A program made the translations under genes and the position numbers. From the IMG/VR virus record IMGVR_UViG_3300025645_000190, positions 1-37,273 of that record: a stretch of DNA of 37,273 nt. One strand, written 5' to 3'. Below the pieces are notes generated by a model that did no database searches, was not told the DNA's origin, and saw nothing but the letters and a program-made list of their open reading frames with translations. The number at the start of each line of letters is the position of its first letter. Position 1 is the first letter of the stretch. This document shows positions 3,197 to 36,525 of this stretch, piece after piece. The DNA is from a virus.

Positions 3197-3676
3197 TTAG
3201 TCAGTTCCTTGTAACTCTAATCCGCCTACTGCATTCTTTGCAGAACCGTTTATTATTCTCATTGCTAATTGTTTTGCTGTTGCAACACTCCAATTAACTG
3301 TAAATTCACCACCTGTAGATGATATTATACTAACTACACCTAAAGATGTCAAGTTAATCCCGTTTCCATCGTGAGAAAGTACTTCTATATCAAATGTTGA
3401 TGCATTTTGAACCGAGATAAAAACTCTAGTTACTGTTGCATTATTTATATAAACATATCTTCCAGATATATTAGAAGGAACTCCTTCACATTCTAGATAT
3501 GCATTAGGGGCTACATTCCCCCCTTTACCATACCCAAATCCGGGAGCTGCTGACGTAGCTACTAATTGAACTATTTCATCAATAGCCTCTTTAGTATCTT
3601 CAGCTATAAGACCAGAATCTGTGTTATCATATGGTACTTGAGTAGCTACTGGTGTAAATTCATCCCTTTTACTCAT
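3197..3676 (-). CDS. Fibre-like protein with YDNTDSGL repeat
   Basis: 159 aa. Residues 16-38 hold YDNTDSGLIAEDTKEAIDEI, the repeat widely found in phage tail fibres and also present five times in the 1131-aa fibre at 13543-16938. The rest is a predicted beta-sandwich (GRYVYINNATVTRVFIS, then TFDIEVLSHDG). The start overlaps the stop of the upstream gene as TAATG, so translation is coupled. Probably a small fibre or baseplate-associated subunit. Confidence 0.82.
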   Translation of the reverse strand: MSKRDEFTPVATQVPYDNTDSGLIAEDTKEAIDEIVQLVATSAAPGFGYGKGGNVAPNAYLECEGVPSNISGRYVYINNATVTRVFISVQNASTFDIEVLSHDGNGINLTSLGVVSIISSTGGEFTVNWSVATAKQLAMRIINGSAKNAVGGLELQGTD

Positions 3677-13542: not shown

Positions 13543-16500
13543 TTATTTTGTAAATCTTTTTATATATGTTACTATATTTCCTTCATAGTTGGCTGTTGGT
13601 ACATCTGTTGATGTATACCTAACTTGACCAGTTGAAGAGTCTATAGAAAATACTACTCCTGAAGGATTTCCAATTAAATTGTCTTCTATATTAGATATAG
13701 ACCAAACAAGATTAGGTCTTCCTATAAAAAGTCTTCCCATTGCAATTGATTCAAAAGTTCCTGCAGCTTGATCTCTTCTATAAATAGAATAATCTATTAA
13801 TGCAGACCTAGTTATACTTGAGTCAAATATTATTCCGGGCAAATCTACTTCTACTGGTTCATTTTGTCCTATAGTGTTTTTTAATGAATCTAAAGATGCA
13901 ACTGATGAATCTAAAGATGTAACTGATGAATCTAATTCATCTAAAGCAGATTTAACATCATTTGAAGTTAGTGATGAATTAGAGTTATTATAATCTGTCT
14001 CTGTAGCCGAACTTGTTCTTTTAAATAAAAATCCTGTTAAAGTACTAGCATCTCTATCAAATGAACATCTATCCATAGTGTAAGCTGCATTCTCTATCCT
14101 AAATGTACCATAATTTACATTAGAAGGATCGAATGTAGTAATATTTTCTAAAGTTATTATTTCAAATTGACTTCCAGCAGCTTGACTTGAAAGACAATGT
14201 CCACTCCCATCTCTTGAAAAATCTGATATATTTCTAAGGTATACAGAACCTCCATTATGTTCTATAGATCCCATACCGTGACAATTTACCGCTCTAAATA
14301 TTTGAGATGATTTTACTGTTATAGTAGTTTCTTTTGCATTACATTCTTCTAAAAGAGTTATATTTCCTTGTACTCCTGTAAATCCAGCAGTAGTTGAGGA
14401 AATCTTTCCTCTTACAATACAGCCTTTAAATTTTACAGCTCCTCCTAGAGTTCCAGAAACTATACAATCTTGAGTTAGTATACTATTTTCTACAATACAA
14501 TCTTGTATAATATGTCCAGAACCATTAGTATTATTTGCTGATGTAGTACCTCTTGCAAAAAGTATAGTAGGACTTACAGTACTTTGAGATATCTTAAGAT
14601 TTTTTAATTTATTATCTTGTGATTCTGTAAAATCTACAGTTCCTAATATAGTAGTTTTTCTTTTATCTGATCCTATTATAATAGTATTAAAAACTCCTGT
14701 CAACACTAAGTTTTCAGAGTAAGTTCCGCTTTCTACATTTATACAATACTCGTCTGTAGTAGCTCCTTGAGCTGTATTTACTACGTCTATAGCATGTTGT
14801 ATAGTAAGGAAAGGGTTTATCATATCACCAGTAGTGCTTAAATCGTCTCCAGTTTGACTACTTACATAATAAGTTCTTTCTGCTGGAACATTTAAAGATT
14901 CTATTTTTATATCTAAAGAATCCACTGCTGCTTGTACGTCAGTATCACTTAAAGCTGAAGATGCTGGATCGTAAGAAGTAGCTAAGGCTGTAGATCCTAA
15001 TCCAGCTAATGTATTTAATTCGTCTATTGCAGACTTAACATCTAATGATGCTAATCCTGAATCTGTGTTATCATATGCTATGTCTTGAGATCTTTGACCT
15101 CTTGTTAATCTTAATCCTGTAATAGTGTCAACTAAAGGATCTCTTGAACATGCATTAAGTATGTATCCACAAGCTTGGATATTTATTTCACCGTAATTAT
15201 TTACAGATAAATCATATGTACTAACATCTTCTAAATATAGTAAATTTGTTGCTGAAAAAGGAGCAGTACTATCAATGCATGACGTTCCTGATCTTTGTAT
15301 TGCATGTATATCTTTTAATGCTATTATTCCTGAATTGTGAGTAATATGTCCTATTGAATAACAATCAACTGCTGTTAGTATAGCATTGCTTACTATTATA
15401 GGAGAGTTATCTGCTGTACATTCTATTAAAGTAACTGAAGTTGTTCCTAAGAAGTTAGTCTGTGTTATATCTAAAATTCCTGTAAATGTTGTTTCTCTAA
15501 ATATATTAAAGCTAGTAACACCGTCTCTTATCTCTAAAGCTTTTTGTCCGGCTGAATCGTTTTCAATTAGACAAGATTCAAAATAATGTCTACCTCCTGT
15601 AGTAACAAGACCATTAGAAGGGGTTGTGCGATCTATAATAACAGTAGGAGTTGTGCTAGATTGATTTATTCTAAAGTTTTTAAATTTTATATTTTCTGAA
15701 TTTGTTAAATCTACAGTTCCTTGTATCCAACAATTTTGAGAATCTGTAATACCTTTTCCTATAATCATAGCATTATAGGCTCCGTCAAGAACTAGATTTT
15801 CTGAATATATTCCAAAATCTACGTTTATAACATATGATGATCCACTTGGTTGAAGAAGTACTGCCTCATTTATTGCTTTTTGTATAGTAGCAAATGGTTT
15901 TAGTAAACTACCTTGATTTGCATCATCTCCCGAAGCTTGACACACATAGTAAGATCTTAGAGCTTGTACGTCTTTTTCAACTATATCTAAATTTAGTTGT
16001 TCTATTGCAGCTTGTACATTTGATGATCCTAATTGAGAAATTGTATCGTCGTATACAATATCTATAGCATCTCCAGACACTGCAGAAGATTTAATTTCAT
16101 CTAAAGCTGCTTGAACATTTGTAGATAATAGTCCTGAAGCTGTATTATCATATGATATTAATTCTGACTCATGTTTTACGTCACTTCCATATAAATGATC
16201 ATTAAAATCAGATTCAACACCTTTGGCTCTAGAAGCTAGTTCATCTAAACTAGGTGCTACATGTGTTTGAGGATTTTGCCAATCTGTTTGATCATTTTGT
16301 GTATATGTTACCGCTGAAGCATCTGAAACTATACCTCCTGTAGCATTGTCAACATAATCCTTTACAGCTTTTTGTGAAGGTATTCTAGTGTCAGAGTCTG
16401 CTGATAATAAAACATCTGTATCTACTACATCTGCTTTAAAATTATCTACTTCTATGTTTGAAATATTTGCTGTGTCTGCGTCTACAACAATAGTGTTATC

Positions 16501-17521: not shown

Positions 17522-17538
17522 ATATAGTTGTTAAATTT
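17522..17538 (-). promoter_or_regulatory. Late promoter element, copy 1
   Basis: Minus-strand AAATTTAACAACTATAT, identical in all five copies. It lies 15 bases from the ATG of the 171-aa gene and directly follows the capsid terminator, so it restarts transcription for the 17-kb tail block. Confidence 0.7.
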
Positions 17539-19142: not shown

Positions 19143-19159
19143 ATATAGTTGTTAAATTT
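19143..19159 (-). promoter_or_regulatory. Late promoter element, copy 2 (capsid)
   Basis: Identical 17-bp element on the minus strand, upstream of the capsid leader, inside the gap after the scaffold gene. Confidence 0.7.
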
Positions 19160-22708: not shown

Positions 22709-22725
22709 ATATAGTTGTTAAATTT
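22709..22725 (-). promoter_or_regulatory. Late promoter element, copy 3 (portal)
   Basis: Identical 17-bp element on the minus strand, 36 bases from the portal ATG. It sits in the 63-base gap after the terminase gene. Confidence 0.7.
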
Positions 22726-25047: not shown

Positions 25048-25889
25048 TATCTTAACTTCATTCCGCTAAGTATTTTTCTTTTTAATAAATTTCTTTCTGC
25101 TTCTTTTTCTCTATCTTCTAAAGATGTATCAGCTTCTGCCATATCCATAATAGCTTCTTTATCATCCAACATTGCTAACATATCAGCATCTCCTGCTTGA
25201 TTAGCTAAAGTTTCTTTTACTCTGTCATCTCTATTATTTCTCAGTCCTTCGTAGTATTTCTTGTCTGCTGCTAACTTATCCATCTTAGCTGGAGAATTTG
25301 CATAATCTTTTCTAGCTTGCATTTCACCCATCATGACATTTTCATCTTCAGAAGATTGTCCAGTTGGAGATGCTTCTGCTAACTGTGAAAATAATGCTAA
25401 GGGTCCACCTAATGCTAACCCTGCTGCTTTACCAGCTCCCATTTTTCCTACTTTAGATCCTAGTTTACCAAGTAGACTCTTTAAACCTTGTTTCTTGTTT
25501 ATAGGAGTTTTTTTAGATAATGCTTGATTATCCATAGCATTTTTCATACTACCTAAATCAAATTCTTTTACCTTATTACCAACATCACTAATTAACTCTG
25601 GAGATCTTTTTAAATCACTACCTCTACTGATAGCTTTATCCATGAGTTCTTTACCTCTCATGCTTTTATCCATTGCTACTTTCTTTTGAAAATCATCACC
25701 TGATATAGATTTACCAAGAGTCTTCTCAAGGTCTTTAATTCTATCAGCTTCAACATTCTTTGAAATATCATCAACATCTATATTATTCATAGAATCCATG
25801 ATAGCTGTTGCATCTGGATCTAATTGTCTAAGCTTAGGTTCTGTTGAACCCATTCTTTTTAATAGTTTACTAAAATCATTATCATCCAT
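25047..25889 (-). CDS. Hypothetical protein, first gene of the head operon
   Basis: 280 aa, GGAGGG ribosome site. Mostly helical and charged, with one glycine/alanine-rich hydrophobic stretch at about 148-172 (GKMGAGKAAGLALGGPLALF). Highly charged ends and a possible membrane-active segment recall internal virion or DNA-ejection proteins of short-tailed phages, but there is no sequence proof. It lies directly behind a late promoter. Confidence 0.75.
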   Translation of the reverse strand: MDDNDFSKLLKRMGSTEPKLRQLDPDATAIMDSMNNIDVDDISKNVEADRIKDLEKTLGKSISGDDFQKKVAMDKSMRGKELMDKAISRGSDLKRSPELISDVGNKVKEFDLGSMKNAMDNQALSKKTPINKKQGLKSLLGKLGSKVGKMGAGKAAGLALGGPLALFSQLAEASPTGQSSEDENVMMGEMQARKDYANSPAKMDKLAADKKYYEGLRNNRDDRVKETLANQAGDADMLAMLDDKEAIMDMAEADTSLEDREKEAERNLLKRKILSGMKLR

Positions 25890-25919
25890 TATCCCTCCAG
25901 ATATATAAAGATGTACAAT

Positions 25920-25936
25920 ATATAGTTGTTAAATTT
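25920..25936 (-). promoter_or_regulatory. Late promoter element, copy 4
   Basis: Identical 17-bp element on the minus strand, 30 bases from the ATG of the 280-aa gene; it would start the terminase-side late operon. Confidence 0.7.
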
Positions 25937-26059
25937 ATGCGTTTTGTTTACAGAATAATCTTGTATTTGAATAATTTTAAGTAGTTGCGTTTTTGAATAG
26001 CTTTCCACTACCCTTATATACATAAAGATAATTGAAAAACCATTAATCTTATCTTAAGT

Positions 26060-26210
26060 TACCGATTAAAGGCGATAGGTTATTAACCCCAATATATCCT
26101 TGTAGTGTAGGCCTTCCGCTGGACTCTTCTGAGTGTCGAGTATCCAGTAAGCGACTTTCCTCACGCTTCCCTTCGGTCTTAACCTATTTCACGGTCCTAG
26201 ACTACAATTA
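26060..26210 (-). ncRNA. Structured noncoding RNA with own sigma70 promoter
   Basis: The region has no gene on either strand but is clearly structured. The start predicted from the promoter is near 26210. CCTAGACTACAA (26196-26207) and TTGTAGTGTAGG (26100-26111) form a 12-bp stem with one mismatch that closes the RNA. Inside lies CTGGA/TCCAG (26119-26147) with a nested ACTC/GAGT hairpin. TAACCTAT (26180-26187), inside the stem, is complementary to ATAGGTTA (26075-26082), outside it, giving a pseudoknot. The 3' end is not marked by a clean terminator. Alternatives: a long leader of the late operon. Confidence 0.6.
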
Positions 26211-26216
26211 GTATTA

Positions 26217-26244
26217 ATTATACAGAAATATAATAATATGTCAA
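26217..26244 (-). promoter_or_regulatory. Consensus sigma70 promoter of the structured RNA
   Basis: On the minus strand a perfect TTGACA (26244-26239) and a perfect TATAAT (26222-26217) are 16 bases apart. It is the only perfect sigma70 promoter seen on the minus strand and points into the structured region. Confidence 0.75.
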
Positions 26245-26258
26245 ATTAAATTAATTGT

Positions 26259-26287
26259 TTGACAAGAAGAAATAATACTGTTAATAT
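26259..26287 (+). promoter_or_regulatory. Rightward early promoter
   Basis: TTGACA, 17 bases, TAATAT, upstream of the first rightward gene. It is back-to-back with the RNA promoter at 26217-26244. The expected start falls at or next to the ATG at 26293, so the transcript may be leaderless. Confidence 0.65.
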
Positions 26288-26292
26288 TTATT

Positions 26293-26496
26293 ATGGGCAA
26301 AAGAGACGGTAAGAAAATTATAGAAACTATGGGCTACGTTATAGTAGCTCAGGTTCCTATGATTATGACATTTGAAGAAGATAAAGCTGCTTTCATAATA
26401 GAACATCTTGGTAACTCTATTGAAAGAGCTTATGATGTTATAGATATGTTTGGAGATAGAGGTGGAGATTTTGATCCCTTTGGAGATGAGGGGTGA
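26293..26496 (+). CDS. First rightward gene, hypothetical
   Basis: 67 aa. Basic start (MGKRDGKK), a hydrophobic centre (GYVIVAQVPMIMTF), and an acidic, glycine-rich tail (FGDRGGDFDPFGDEG). No ribosome site lies before the ATG, which is about 6 bases after the -10 box; leaderless translation or a later start (M13) are the alternatives. No family recognised. Confidence 0.55.
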   Translation: MGKRDGKKIIETMGYVIVAQVPMIMTFEEDKAAFIIEHLGNSIERAYDVIDMFGDRGGDFDPFGDEG

Positions 26497-31019: not shown

Positions 31020-31077
31020 AAACAAGTTAATACATTATTTAAAGTCTCACTTCCGAGCGTTCTAAATTGTCCCATAC

Positions 31078-31110
31078 AAAAATGCCTCATATCTGAGGCG
31101 TTCTTTTTTA
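31078..31110. terminator. Bidirectional intrinsic terminator
   Basis: GCCTCA-TATC-TGAGGC stem with T-runs on both sides (TTCTTTTTT on plus; ATTTTTGT on minus). It ends the rightward operon from 30337 and, on the minus strand, the RNA from the late element at 31370. Confidence 0.88.
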
Positions 31111-31368
31111 TACACAAATTGGTTAGGATTTTGGCATAACTCTCTTTTACTAGTATAAGGTCACTAGCCGAAAGTCATGCTAAATAGATTATGTTTACTT
31201 TTTCTATTTGGCTTTTGCTGTTAAGCAATTTATCCAAGATCTTAAAGCGTTCCGCTCAAGTCTTTTGAAGGTCGTTTCTTGAGTACACAGCTTTTAAACT
31301 TCATGTGCCTAGTCGAAAAATCATGTTGCCAATCAGAATCATTTTTTAACGGTCTCTAAAATCTCTTA
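31085..31368 (-). ncRNA. Late-promoter-driven structured noncoding RNA
   Basis: No coding gene follows the leftward late element at 31370, yet about 280 bases later there is a terminator on the same strand. In between, the minus strand can form GCACA/TGTGT, CTCAAG/CTTGAG (31281-31253), AGCG/CGCT, GCTT/AAGC and CTTT-CGG-CTAGT/ACTAG-T-AAAG (about 31173-31144). Promoter, dense hairpins and terminator together define an RNA gene. Known families such as phi29 pRNA or tRNA are not recognised. Confidence 0.6.
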
Positions 31369-31369
31369 A

Positions 31370-31386
31370 ATATAGTTGTTAAATTT
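31370..31386 (-). promoter_or_regulatory. Late promoter element, copy 5 (noncoding RNA)
   Basis: Identical 17-bp element on the minus strand, embedded in the rightward gene half, with no protein gene downstream. Confidence 0.65.
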
Positions 31387-31458: not shown

Positions 31459-31524
31459 TGTATCTGTTTAAATTGTCGAGGCTCAAACAGATACAATTAA
31501 AAATGATGCAGTAGCGTTTGCATC
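31459..31524. other. Two tandem strong hairpins
   Basis: TGTATCTGTTT (31459-31469) pairs perfectly with AAACAGATACA (31485-31495), giving an 11-bp stem and a 15-base loop. GATGCA (31505-31510) pairs with TGCATC (31519-31524). Neither has a U-run on either strand, so they are not terminators. They may be protein sites or single-strand structures for replication start. Confidence 0.55.
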
Positions 31525-31881: not shown

Positions 31882-31910
31882 TTGACACGCTGTGTTATAA
31901 CTGATATAAT
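31882..31910 (+). promoter_or_regulatory. Consensus early promoter
   Basis: Perfect TTGACA, 17 bases ending in TGA, perfect TATAAT. It is followed by the leader ATATGTAGGAAC that recurs at other early promoters. Confidence 0.85.
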
Positions 31911-32571: not shown

Positions 32572-32600
32572 TTGACACAATTAACGCAGTATGTTATAAT
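32572..32600 (+). promoter_or_regulatory. Consensus early promoter
   Basis: Perfect TTGACA, 17 bases ending in TGT, perfect TATAAT, followed by the repeated leader TAATTAAGAACTAAACAAGG. Confidence 0.85.
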
Positions 32601-34162: not shown

Positions 34163-34191
34163 TTGACACAATACATTAAAAATGTTATAAT
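34163..34191 (+). promoter_or_regulatory. Consensus early promoter
   Basis: Perfect TTGACA, 17 bases ending in TGT, perfect TATAAT, then ATATGTAGGAACTAAACGAG. Confidence 0.85.
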
Positions 34192-34877: not shown

Positions 34878-34906
34878 TTGACACGATTAACGCAGTATGT
34901 TATAAT
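34878..34906 (+). promoter_or_regulatory. Consensus early promoter
   Basis: Perfect TTGACA, 17 bases ending in TGT, perfect TATAAT, then ATTATAGGAGG. It shares the spacer ATTAACGCAGTATGT with the promoter at 32572. Confidence 0.85.
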
Positions 34907-35263: not shown

Positions 35264-35385
35264 TAGAAAGATTTATTATAGTAATGTCAGGTGTAGTAAT
35301 TACAGGATTATTAATGGGTATAGTTACGCTTTTTATTAATGATAAGATATTAAAAAGAAGAAAAAGGAAAAAAAATGATAGGTAA
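35260..35385 (+). CDS. 41-aa membrane protein with basic tail
   Basis: One hydrophobic helix at about 4-28 (FIIVMSGVVITGLLMGIVTL) and a strongly basic end (KILKRRKRKKND). Overlaps both neighbours. Typical small membrane protein; function unknown. Confidence 0.55.
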   Translation: MIERFIIVMSGVVITGLLMGIVTLFINDKILKRRKRKKNDR

Positions 35386-35737
35386 ACAAGTTCAAGTATA
35401 TTTTAACTTACATAAAAAATGCTATAGCGTTAGAGATAAAAAGACTCGACTCGTAATAGCTCATGTAAACAAAATTAGTTTAGGAGATGTTAGCTTCAAA
35501 GTTAGCGAAAAAGGTAGACAGCGAGTTTTAGAAGAGCAAAGAAAAAATGTTCATGCTATTGTTGAAGGTACAATTTTGAGCTATGACGCATTTAAAAGAG
35601 ATATGAAAGGAGTTACTTACAACCCTTATATGTATTCAACTTTTATAACAAGAGCTGATAAACAGCCTATAACAAGCTCTAATGAGGTTTACATGCTTGT
35701 TACTAATGAAAAGAGAGCTAGAATATTTGCTATGTAA
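35375..35737 (+). CDS. Conserved phage protein next to Gp88
   Basis: 120 aa, AAAAGGAAA before the ATG. The sequence QVYFNLHKKCYSVRDKKTRL followed by GRQRVLEEQRKNVHAIVEG looks like a small protein I have seen in phages and prophages of Proteobacteria, without a known function. It has one clear globular, basic domain. It precedes the Gp88-family gene. I cannot supply a family name. Confidence 0.65.
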   Translation: MIGKQVQVYFNLHKKCYSVRDKKTRLVIAHVNKISLGDVSFKVSEKGRQRVLEEQRKNVHAIVEGTILSYDAFKRDMKGVTYNPYMYSTFITRADKQPITSSNEVYMLVTNEKRARIFAM

Positions 35738-35772: not shown

Positions 35773-35801
35773 TTGACACGACGCATAAAGTTTGATATAC
35801 T
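35773..35801 (+). promoter_or_regulatory. Early promoter
   Basis: Perfect TTGACA, 17 bases ending in TGA, TATACT. The transcript would begin near 35808, which fixes the start of the next gene. Confidence 0.8.
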
Positions 35802-35835
35802 TAATAAGAGGAAACAAACTAACAGAAGGAATCAA

Positions 35836-36525
35836 ATGAGAAATCTATTAACAACGCAAAACAGTAAGACAAGTAAGGGTGAATCAAAAGGTTATCTGAC
35901 AGGAATTTTATACCTTGCACCATCGACAAGCGTGGAAGGAATAAATACTTGTAAATTTGCATCAAAAGGTTGTAAAGAAGCTTGTTTGTATACAGCAGGA
36001 CGTGGAAAATTTAGTAATGTAAAAAATGCAAGAATTAGCAAAACAGAATTATTTAGAGATGATAGAAATTATTTTATGCAATCACTTAAATGGTCAATCG
36101 AAAAAGTTTTAAGGAAAGCAAAAAGAGAAGAGTTGACTCCAGTGATTCGTTTAAACGGTACTTCAGATATTGAATGGCATAACATTTTAATCGATGGTAA
36201 GAATATATTTGATCATTTTTCAGATGTTCAATTCTATGACTACACTAAGAATCACTTAAGGTTTAAAGATAACCTTCCTAAAAACTATCACTTAACTTTT
36301 TCTATGTCGGAAAATAAAGCTAATAATATTCATGCAATTAACATTTTAGGAGAGAAGAAAGCCAATGTTGCAGTTGTATTTAAAGAGTTGCCTGAAACTT
36401 ATAGGGGTTTTAAAGTTGTAAATGGAGACCTAACAGACTTAAGATTTTTAGACGAGAAAAATGTTATTGTTGGATTATTAGCAAAAGGAGATGCAAAAAA
36501 AGATTTGTCAGGCTTTGTGAAATAA
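35836..36525 (+). CDS. Gp88-family (DUF7227-like) phage protein
   Basis: 229 aa from ATG 35836, which has AGAAGGA upstream; a longer frame from 35773 would start inside the promoter. Residues 39-50 (CKFASKGCKEAC) give C-x6-C-x3-C, followed by LYTAGRG. RLNGTSDIEW (about 105-114), FYDYTKN, LTFSMSEN and VVNGDLTD follow, the typical order of this family. The cysteines may hold an iron-sulfur cluster or zinc. The biochemical role of the family is not established to my knowledge. Confidence 0.8.
   Translation: MRNLLTTQNSKTSKGESKGYLTGILYLAPSTSVEGINTCKFASKGCKEACLYTAGRGKFSNVKNARISKTELFRDDRNYFMQSLKWSIEKVLRKAKREELTPVIRLNGTSDIEWHNILIDGKNIFDHFSDVQFYDYTKNHLRFKDNLPKNYHLTFSMSENKANNIHAINILGEKKANVAVVFKELPETYRGFKVVNGDLTDLRFLDEKNVIVGLLAKGDAKKDLSGFVK

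Follow-up and report, generated by a model that had tools for sequence, protein, structure and literature searches.

A conserved structured RNA, probably trans-acting, at the transcription divide of a phage genome and in several phage lineages

Between the two oppositely transcribed gene blocks of IMG/VR virus record IMGVR_UViG_3300025645_000190 (positions 1 to 37,273, the whole stretch of 37,273 nucleotides analysed here and termed the window) lies a short region that an initial annotation, made from the letters alone, had read as a pseudoknotted RNA behind a minus-strand sigma70 promoter. Does this locus encode a genuine structured RNA and, if so, what could such a molecule do for the phage? 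Its position at the transcription divide is as claimed: minus-strand genes end at 25889-26023, plus-strand genes begin at 26293, and the GC skew turns at the locus. The minus-strand side carries the late genes, including those for terminase and portal. The absence of an open frame was likewise borne out, with no ORF of at least 40 aa within 26040-26280 and no coding frame kept in related phages. A coding role was also rejected for the 44-aa ORF at 25889-26023, whose frame is interrupted by a TAA in the related contig L005. Plus-strand frames at 35375-35737 and 35773-36525 of this low-GC phage encode proteins matching the Pfam families Phage_L5_gp82, which is named after a mycobacteriophage gene, and GP88.

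The annotated promoter proved to be a perfect match (Table 1). A host-type promoter stands in the same place, at a constant distance from the closing stem P1, in all seven early-type sequences of the RNA behind it (termed RNA1), and the promoter of the copy in contig L108 is also perfect. The window holds seven perfect sigma70 sites as compared to 0.08 expected by chance. The six others (TTGACA-N15..19-TATAAT) are found at 31882-31910, 32572-32600, 34163-34191 and 34878-34906 on the plus strand and at 3324-3352 and 14675-14703 on the minus strand; four of them are in the plus-strand early region, ahead of early genes, and two within late genes. Since all seven early-type sequences carry a host-type promoter and perfect sigma70 sites precede the plus-strand early genes, it is reasonable to suppose, with the annotation, that host RNA polymerase would make RNA1 from the first minutes of infection. 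The entire 320-nt leader holding RNA1 is conserved among relatives. No clear terminator was seen for RNA1, so that transcription may run on into the late operon.

Table 1. Features of the two RNA loci in the window (all coordinates refer to the window).
Feature	Position	Strand	Basis
Sigma70 promoter of RNA1, TTGACA-N16-TATAAT	26217..26244	(-)	12/12 consensus match
RNA1 with 3' extension	25999..26210	(-)	alignments and model; ends inferred, 5' end about 26210, 3' end approximate
P1, 5' arm	26196..26207	(-)	pairs with 26100-26111; two-sided changes in 10/11 pairs, 18 sequences
P1, 3' arm	26100..26111	(-)	same covariation analysis, 18 sequences
P1b, CCG with CGG	26192..26194 with 26116-26118	(-)	within conserved core GACCGUNAAA / GCGGAANGC
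Hairpin 1, loop UGAG 26160-26163	26149..26168	(-)	5/5 pairs with two-sided changes
Hairpin 2, loop CUCA 26130-26133	26119..26147	(-)	7/8 stem pairs with two-sided changes
P5 hairpin, 26069-26064 with 26048-26043	26043..26069	(-)	6/6 pairs with two-sided changes, 18 sequences
P6 stem, 26041-26034 with 26006-25999	25999..26041	(-)	read by eye
Late-promoter-like motif AATTTAACAACTATA between RNA1 and first late gene	25921..25935	(-)	exact copy
AATTTAACAACTATA directly ahead of RNA2	31371..31385	(-)	exact copy
RNA2, second family copy	31075..31370	(-)	model match 31180-31365, E=2.1e-9
Intrinsic terminator of RNA2, GCCTCA-gata-TGAGGC then T run	31077..31099	(-)	sequence and fold

The folding energy of RNA1 is no better than that of shuffled sequences (z=0.18), and the case for an RNA was therefore made by comparison rather than by energetics. 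In a plain MAFFT alignment of the seven early-type sequences, 93% of the cells pair, two-sided changes occur in 21 of 30 pairs, and the covariation of 0.703 compares with 0.192 in shuffled and at most 0.10 in slid controls. When 18 sequences were aligned by fitting to the model, a procedure that favours structure, two-sided changes were found in 29 of 33 pairs (169 cells versus 50 in shuffles; 0 of 500 shuffles reach this value). Complementary changes in the stem arms of related phages had been named in the initial annotation as a test, and the arms indeed change together. The claimed closing stem is present with eleven of twelve pairs and a C.C mismatch, and the claimed nested hairpins occur in the minimum-energy fold; across the family P1 consists of 7 bp, usually a mismatch, and then 4 bp. 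The limits given for the element (26060-26244) were too short at the 3' side, where conserved structure runs on to about 25999 (P5 and P6). One C-G pair of P1b becomes G-C in two diverged copies, L028 and L017 (GCG/CGC). P6, judged by eye, is complementary in the window, L002, L005, L028 and L020 despite different sequences; P4 was also read by eye, and loop limits and hairpin choices were set by hand. Around a compact junction, near-invariant unpaired core bases, GACCGUNAAA opposite GCGGAANGC, contrast with the rest of the molecule, which varies freely. We conclude that the RNA1 locus encodes a genuine structured noncoding RNA, whose helices and loop pairs vary in sequence while pairing persists.

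The annotated pseudoknot did not withstand the same comparison. Its 8 bp (26180-26187 with 26075-26082) are perfect in the window, yet only 75% of the cells pair in seven homologues, as compared to 71.6% in shuffles, and 77 of 500 shuffles reach the observed value. A local hairpin competes for these bases, and the equivalent region of RNA2, the second copy in the window, forms a local hairpin as well, UUGCU/AGCAA in the window and L005 and UAGCU/AGCUA in L003 and L104. A different tertiary contact is supported by complementarity between the loops of hairpins 1 and 2, which read UGAG/CUCA in the window RNA1. Other loop pairs are GGAGU/ACUCC (L020, L017), UGAAG/CUUCA (window RNA2, L104), UAGAG/CUCUA (L003 RNA2), AACA/UGUU (L005 RNA2), UAACUG/CAGUUA (L080), GGAA/UUCC (L122), UCCC/GGGA (L124), AAUC/GAUU (L125), UUGC/GCAA (L131) and CGUU/AACG (L154). 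At least four Watson-Crick loop-loop pairs can form in 13 of 19 representatives versus 16% of non-cognate pairings; with hand-set loop limits, the permutation P value was 5e-5 for the first nine bases of loop 1 and 0.002 without that restriction. L110, L126 and L132 lack the contact, and in L102, L111 and L112 it is limited to 3 bp.

Counting the window, the RNA family is carried by 27 IMG/VR contigs from several phage lineages, for a total of 33 copies; some of the contigs are near-identical, leaving perhaps 20 distinct phages. A search for relatives with the single terminase sequence of the window confirmed nothing, and a terminase alignment used as query returned 80 loci. Six IMG/VR contigs besides the window matched a 22-base pattern taken from the core, all with the window's neighbours, the terminase of one group among them being only 42% identical to that of the window. 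Profile searches yielded the diverged copies L028, L017 and L020, conserved-core pattern scans yielded L108-L112, L122-L128, L131 and L132, a motif search yielded L080, and model R1, built from RNA1-type sequences only, detected L154, which the pattern had missed. Model R2, built from 18 sequences, recovered members left out of it with E values of 2e-11 to 3e-3 in 763 kb, scores that are inflated because most of these members had been pre-picked by a pattern sharing both core motifs; the best E value of a chance pattern match was 0.06. The pattern hits L008, L009, L113, L119, L120, L121 and L130 were rejected as chance (R2 E=0.06 for L113 and 1.2 for L119, nothing for the others). Two copies per phage occur in the window, L003, L005, L107, G005 (the contig of L006) and G027 (the contig of L111, 79.6 kb); those of L003, L005, L107 and G005 form the RNA1-RNA2 pair known from the window. 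The RNA1 copies L017:3609-3809 and L003:9028-9194 are nearly identical in their 3' halves but differ in their 5' halves, a pattern resembling recombination within the RNA gene. Genes for a DnaB-like helicase and for DNA polymerase A are present on a relative's contig of 84.8 kb.

Scanning 84,980 bacterial and archaeal species genomes with a fixed DNA pattern, which would miss diverged copies, gave three hits, all chance-like, and at this stringency the family appears to be phage-only. The named isolates nearest to the carriers in terminase or ERF (Rhizobium, Methanoculleus, Synechococcus, Prochlorococcus, Edwardsiella and Stenotrophomonas phages) have no copy, nor do two further records or a Silvanigrella phage, and blastn against the phage collection gave no match.

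RNA2 was matched by model R1 at 31365-31180 on the minus strand (50.1 bits), and its energy fold gives the same stems (z=-2.2). The initial annotation had overlooked this copy, as it had the loop-loop contact and the wide phage family. It sits in a 900-base stretch without plus-strand genes, and no gene follows its terminator. An inverted repeat, TGTATCTGTTT / AAACAGATACA, is located at 31459-31496, between RNA2 and the next early gene. Five exact copies of the motif AATTTAACAACTATA are found in the window, each of them on the minus strand (17523-17537, 19144-19158 and 22710-22724 in addition to those of Table 1); the copies precede late genes and RNA2, and the motif recurs in relatives. We read AATTTAACAACTATA as a probable late promoter of the phage. 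Searches for a phage RNA polymerase, such as a T7-like enzyme suited to this motif, found none, one of the searches being weak in that the family matched nowhere. From these promoter types we infer that RNA1 is early and RNA2 late, and the presence of both in one genome suggests a need for the RNA throughout infection.

The genes next to the RNA differ between phages: the late operon in the window, queuosine genes and ERF in L110, RecT and DUF3799 in L112, and HNH and a distant terminase in L108. In L110, the plus-strand region 357-2609 upstream of the RNA carries the queuosine/7-deazaguanine synthesis genes QueC, QueD and QueE and GTP cyclohydrolase I. Downstream, different members have a late gene, ERF, HNH or no gene. 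Among distant members no gene family recurs beside the RNA, and terminase and portal genes do so only in phages related to that of the window, a 37 kb fragment encoding a large terminase and a portal. Because neighbours differ in this way, RNA2 has a terminator without a gene behind it, and RNA1 has its own promoter while the gene downstream has a separate late motif in front of it, the RNA is most likely trans-acting.

RNA1 would then be the early representative of a hitherto undescribed family of structured phage RNAs that act in trans, with host RNA polymerase making RNA1 early and RNA2 following late, so that one RNA function could be supplied at both stages. The two hairpins may be held together by their kissing loops, whether within one molecule in the manner of the purine riboswitch or from copy to copy like phi29 pRNA, and so joined they would present the near-invariant GACCGUNAAA/GCGGAANGC core to a conserved partner. 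Such a core in an otherwise freely varying molecule points to a conserved partner, and the constancy of the core while neighbouring genes and base composition differ argues for a protein. Most likely this partner would be a protein common to bacteria or to the carrier phages, and the RNA would be better described as an RNP scaffold than as a cis leader or antisense RNA. We regard a trans-acting RNA of the architecture described, preferably as an RNP scaffold, as the probable reading, held with some reserve, and place far less confidence in any one particular partner. More tentative is the wider proposal of a phage-wide RNA machine, RNP or multimeric and unlike known classes, with an early host-transcribed and a late gene and a partner shared by many hosts or phages, in host transcription or defence or in packaging.

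Among the alternatives, the RNA could be an analogue of packaging RNA, copies of which would associate through their kissing loops as a ring at the portal and aid the terminase, like phi29 pRNA. In pRNAs a closing helix is combined with two interlocking loops, which vary in sequence between phages while pairing is kept, with low sequence similarity overall (PMC5340915), and the loops are complementary here also; moreover, the RNA lies upstream of packaging genes on the same strand in the window group, L108, L109, L122 and L125 and adjoins the terminase in L126. However, Rfam pRNA models find no match, the carrier phages have ordinary large terminases, the RNA stands beside recombination genes in L110 and L112, and packaging would make an early promoter and a second copy unnecessary, so that we consider this role unlikely. 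The possibility that the RNA forms homo-oligomers through its loops without a protein partner draws on the observation that loop pairing is conserved and loop sequence is not, and on GOLLD and ROOL, which are phage- or prophage-coded structured RNAs of unknown function, multimeric and with conserved kissing loops (PMC12286853). This appears quite unlikely, given that RNA1 measures only about 210 nt, that adjacent hairpins can kiss within one molecule and that a partner better explains the near-invariant unpaired core bases. A cis-acting leader of the late operon, either a put-type antiterminator or a riboswitch, would suit the position of RNA1 between a promoter and the same-strand late operon and the conservation of the whole leader; the intervening late motif, the gene-less terminator of RNA2 and the varying downstream genes make it distinctly improbable. 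A ribozyme with the conserved core as catalytic centre would agree with near-invariant unpaired bases surrounding a compact junction and is very improbable, as known ribozyme families are unmatched and no cleavage product is known.

The conserved loop pairing makes direct, testable predictions, and a molecule of about 210 nt is small enough for quick probing, mutation and structure solution. Few phage RNAs with an elaborate conserved structure are known (pRNA, GOLLD, ROOL). The present family is missing from Rfam, and the pattern scan, at its stringency, did not find it in bacterial genomes; it spans phages that differ in terminases, gene neighbours and base composition.

How does the family compare with known RNA classes? 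The initial statement that no known class could be matched holds: an Rfam search of RNA1 gave no match even at E<=10 except for two short matches below threshold, which lie outside the core of the RNA and are put down to chance, and no description of the family was found in the literature within reach of the search, which excluded subscription journals and most preprints. ARAGORN detected neither tRNA nor tmRNA in the window. RNase P RNA, considered because GAGGAAAGUC resembles CR-I, was rejected with no hit at E<=10. An early trans-acting RNA could, like 6S RNA, act on host RNA polymerase; 6S RNA is one long hairpin with a large central bubble, whereas the structure here is branched, and Rfam gave no match to it. 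The purine riboswitch fold consists of P1 and two side-by-side hairpins with kissing loops. The family has a comparable closing stem and adjacent hairpins joined by loops, an analogy of shape only, and differs in its longer junction, its extra variable hairpin, the lack of an Rfam match and in not being the leader of a fixed gene; membership among cis-regulatory leaders or riboswitches was rejected since the downstream gene type is not constant. With phi29 pRNA (RF00044) it shares phage coding, a closing stem around two hairpins and complementary loop segments, the latter in 13 of 19 representatives. The pRNA model gave no match at E<=10 in 25880-26420, nor at E<=5 in five distant members, and, unlike pRNA, the family has the GACCGUNAAA/GCGGAANGC core, extra 3' stems P4-P6 and two copies in several genomes. 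Phi29-like carriers have small genomes and phi29-type packaging, whereas the window phage has a standard large terminase and portal and a relative's contig reaches 84.8 kb. The GOLLD and ROOL models also gave no match; these RNAs measure 600-800 nt and often lie near tRNA genes, whereas RNA1 (about 210 nt, RNA2 about 300 nt) is three to four times shorter and of different architecture. By these comparisons the family appears unrelated to every known RNA family tested and takes its place among structured phage RNAs, as a broad kind already known.
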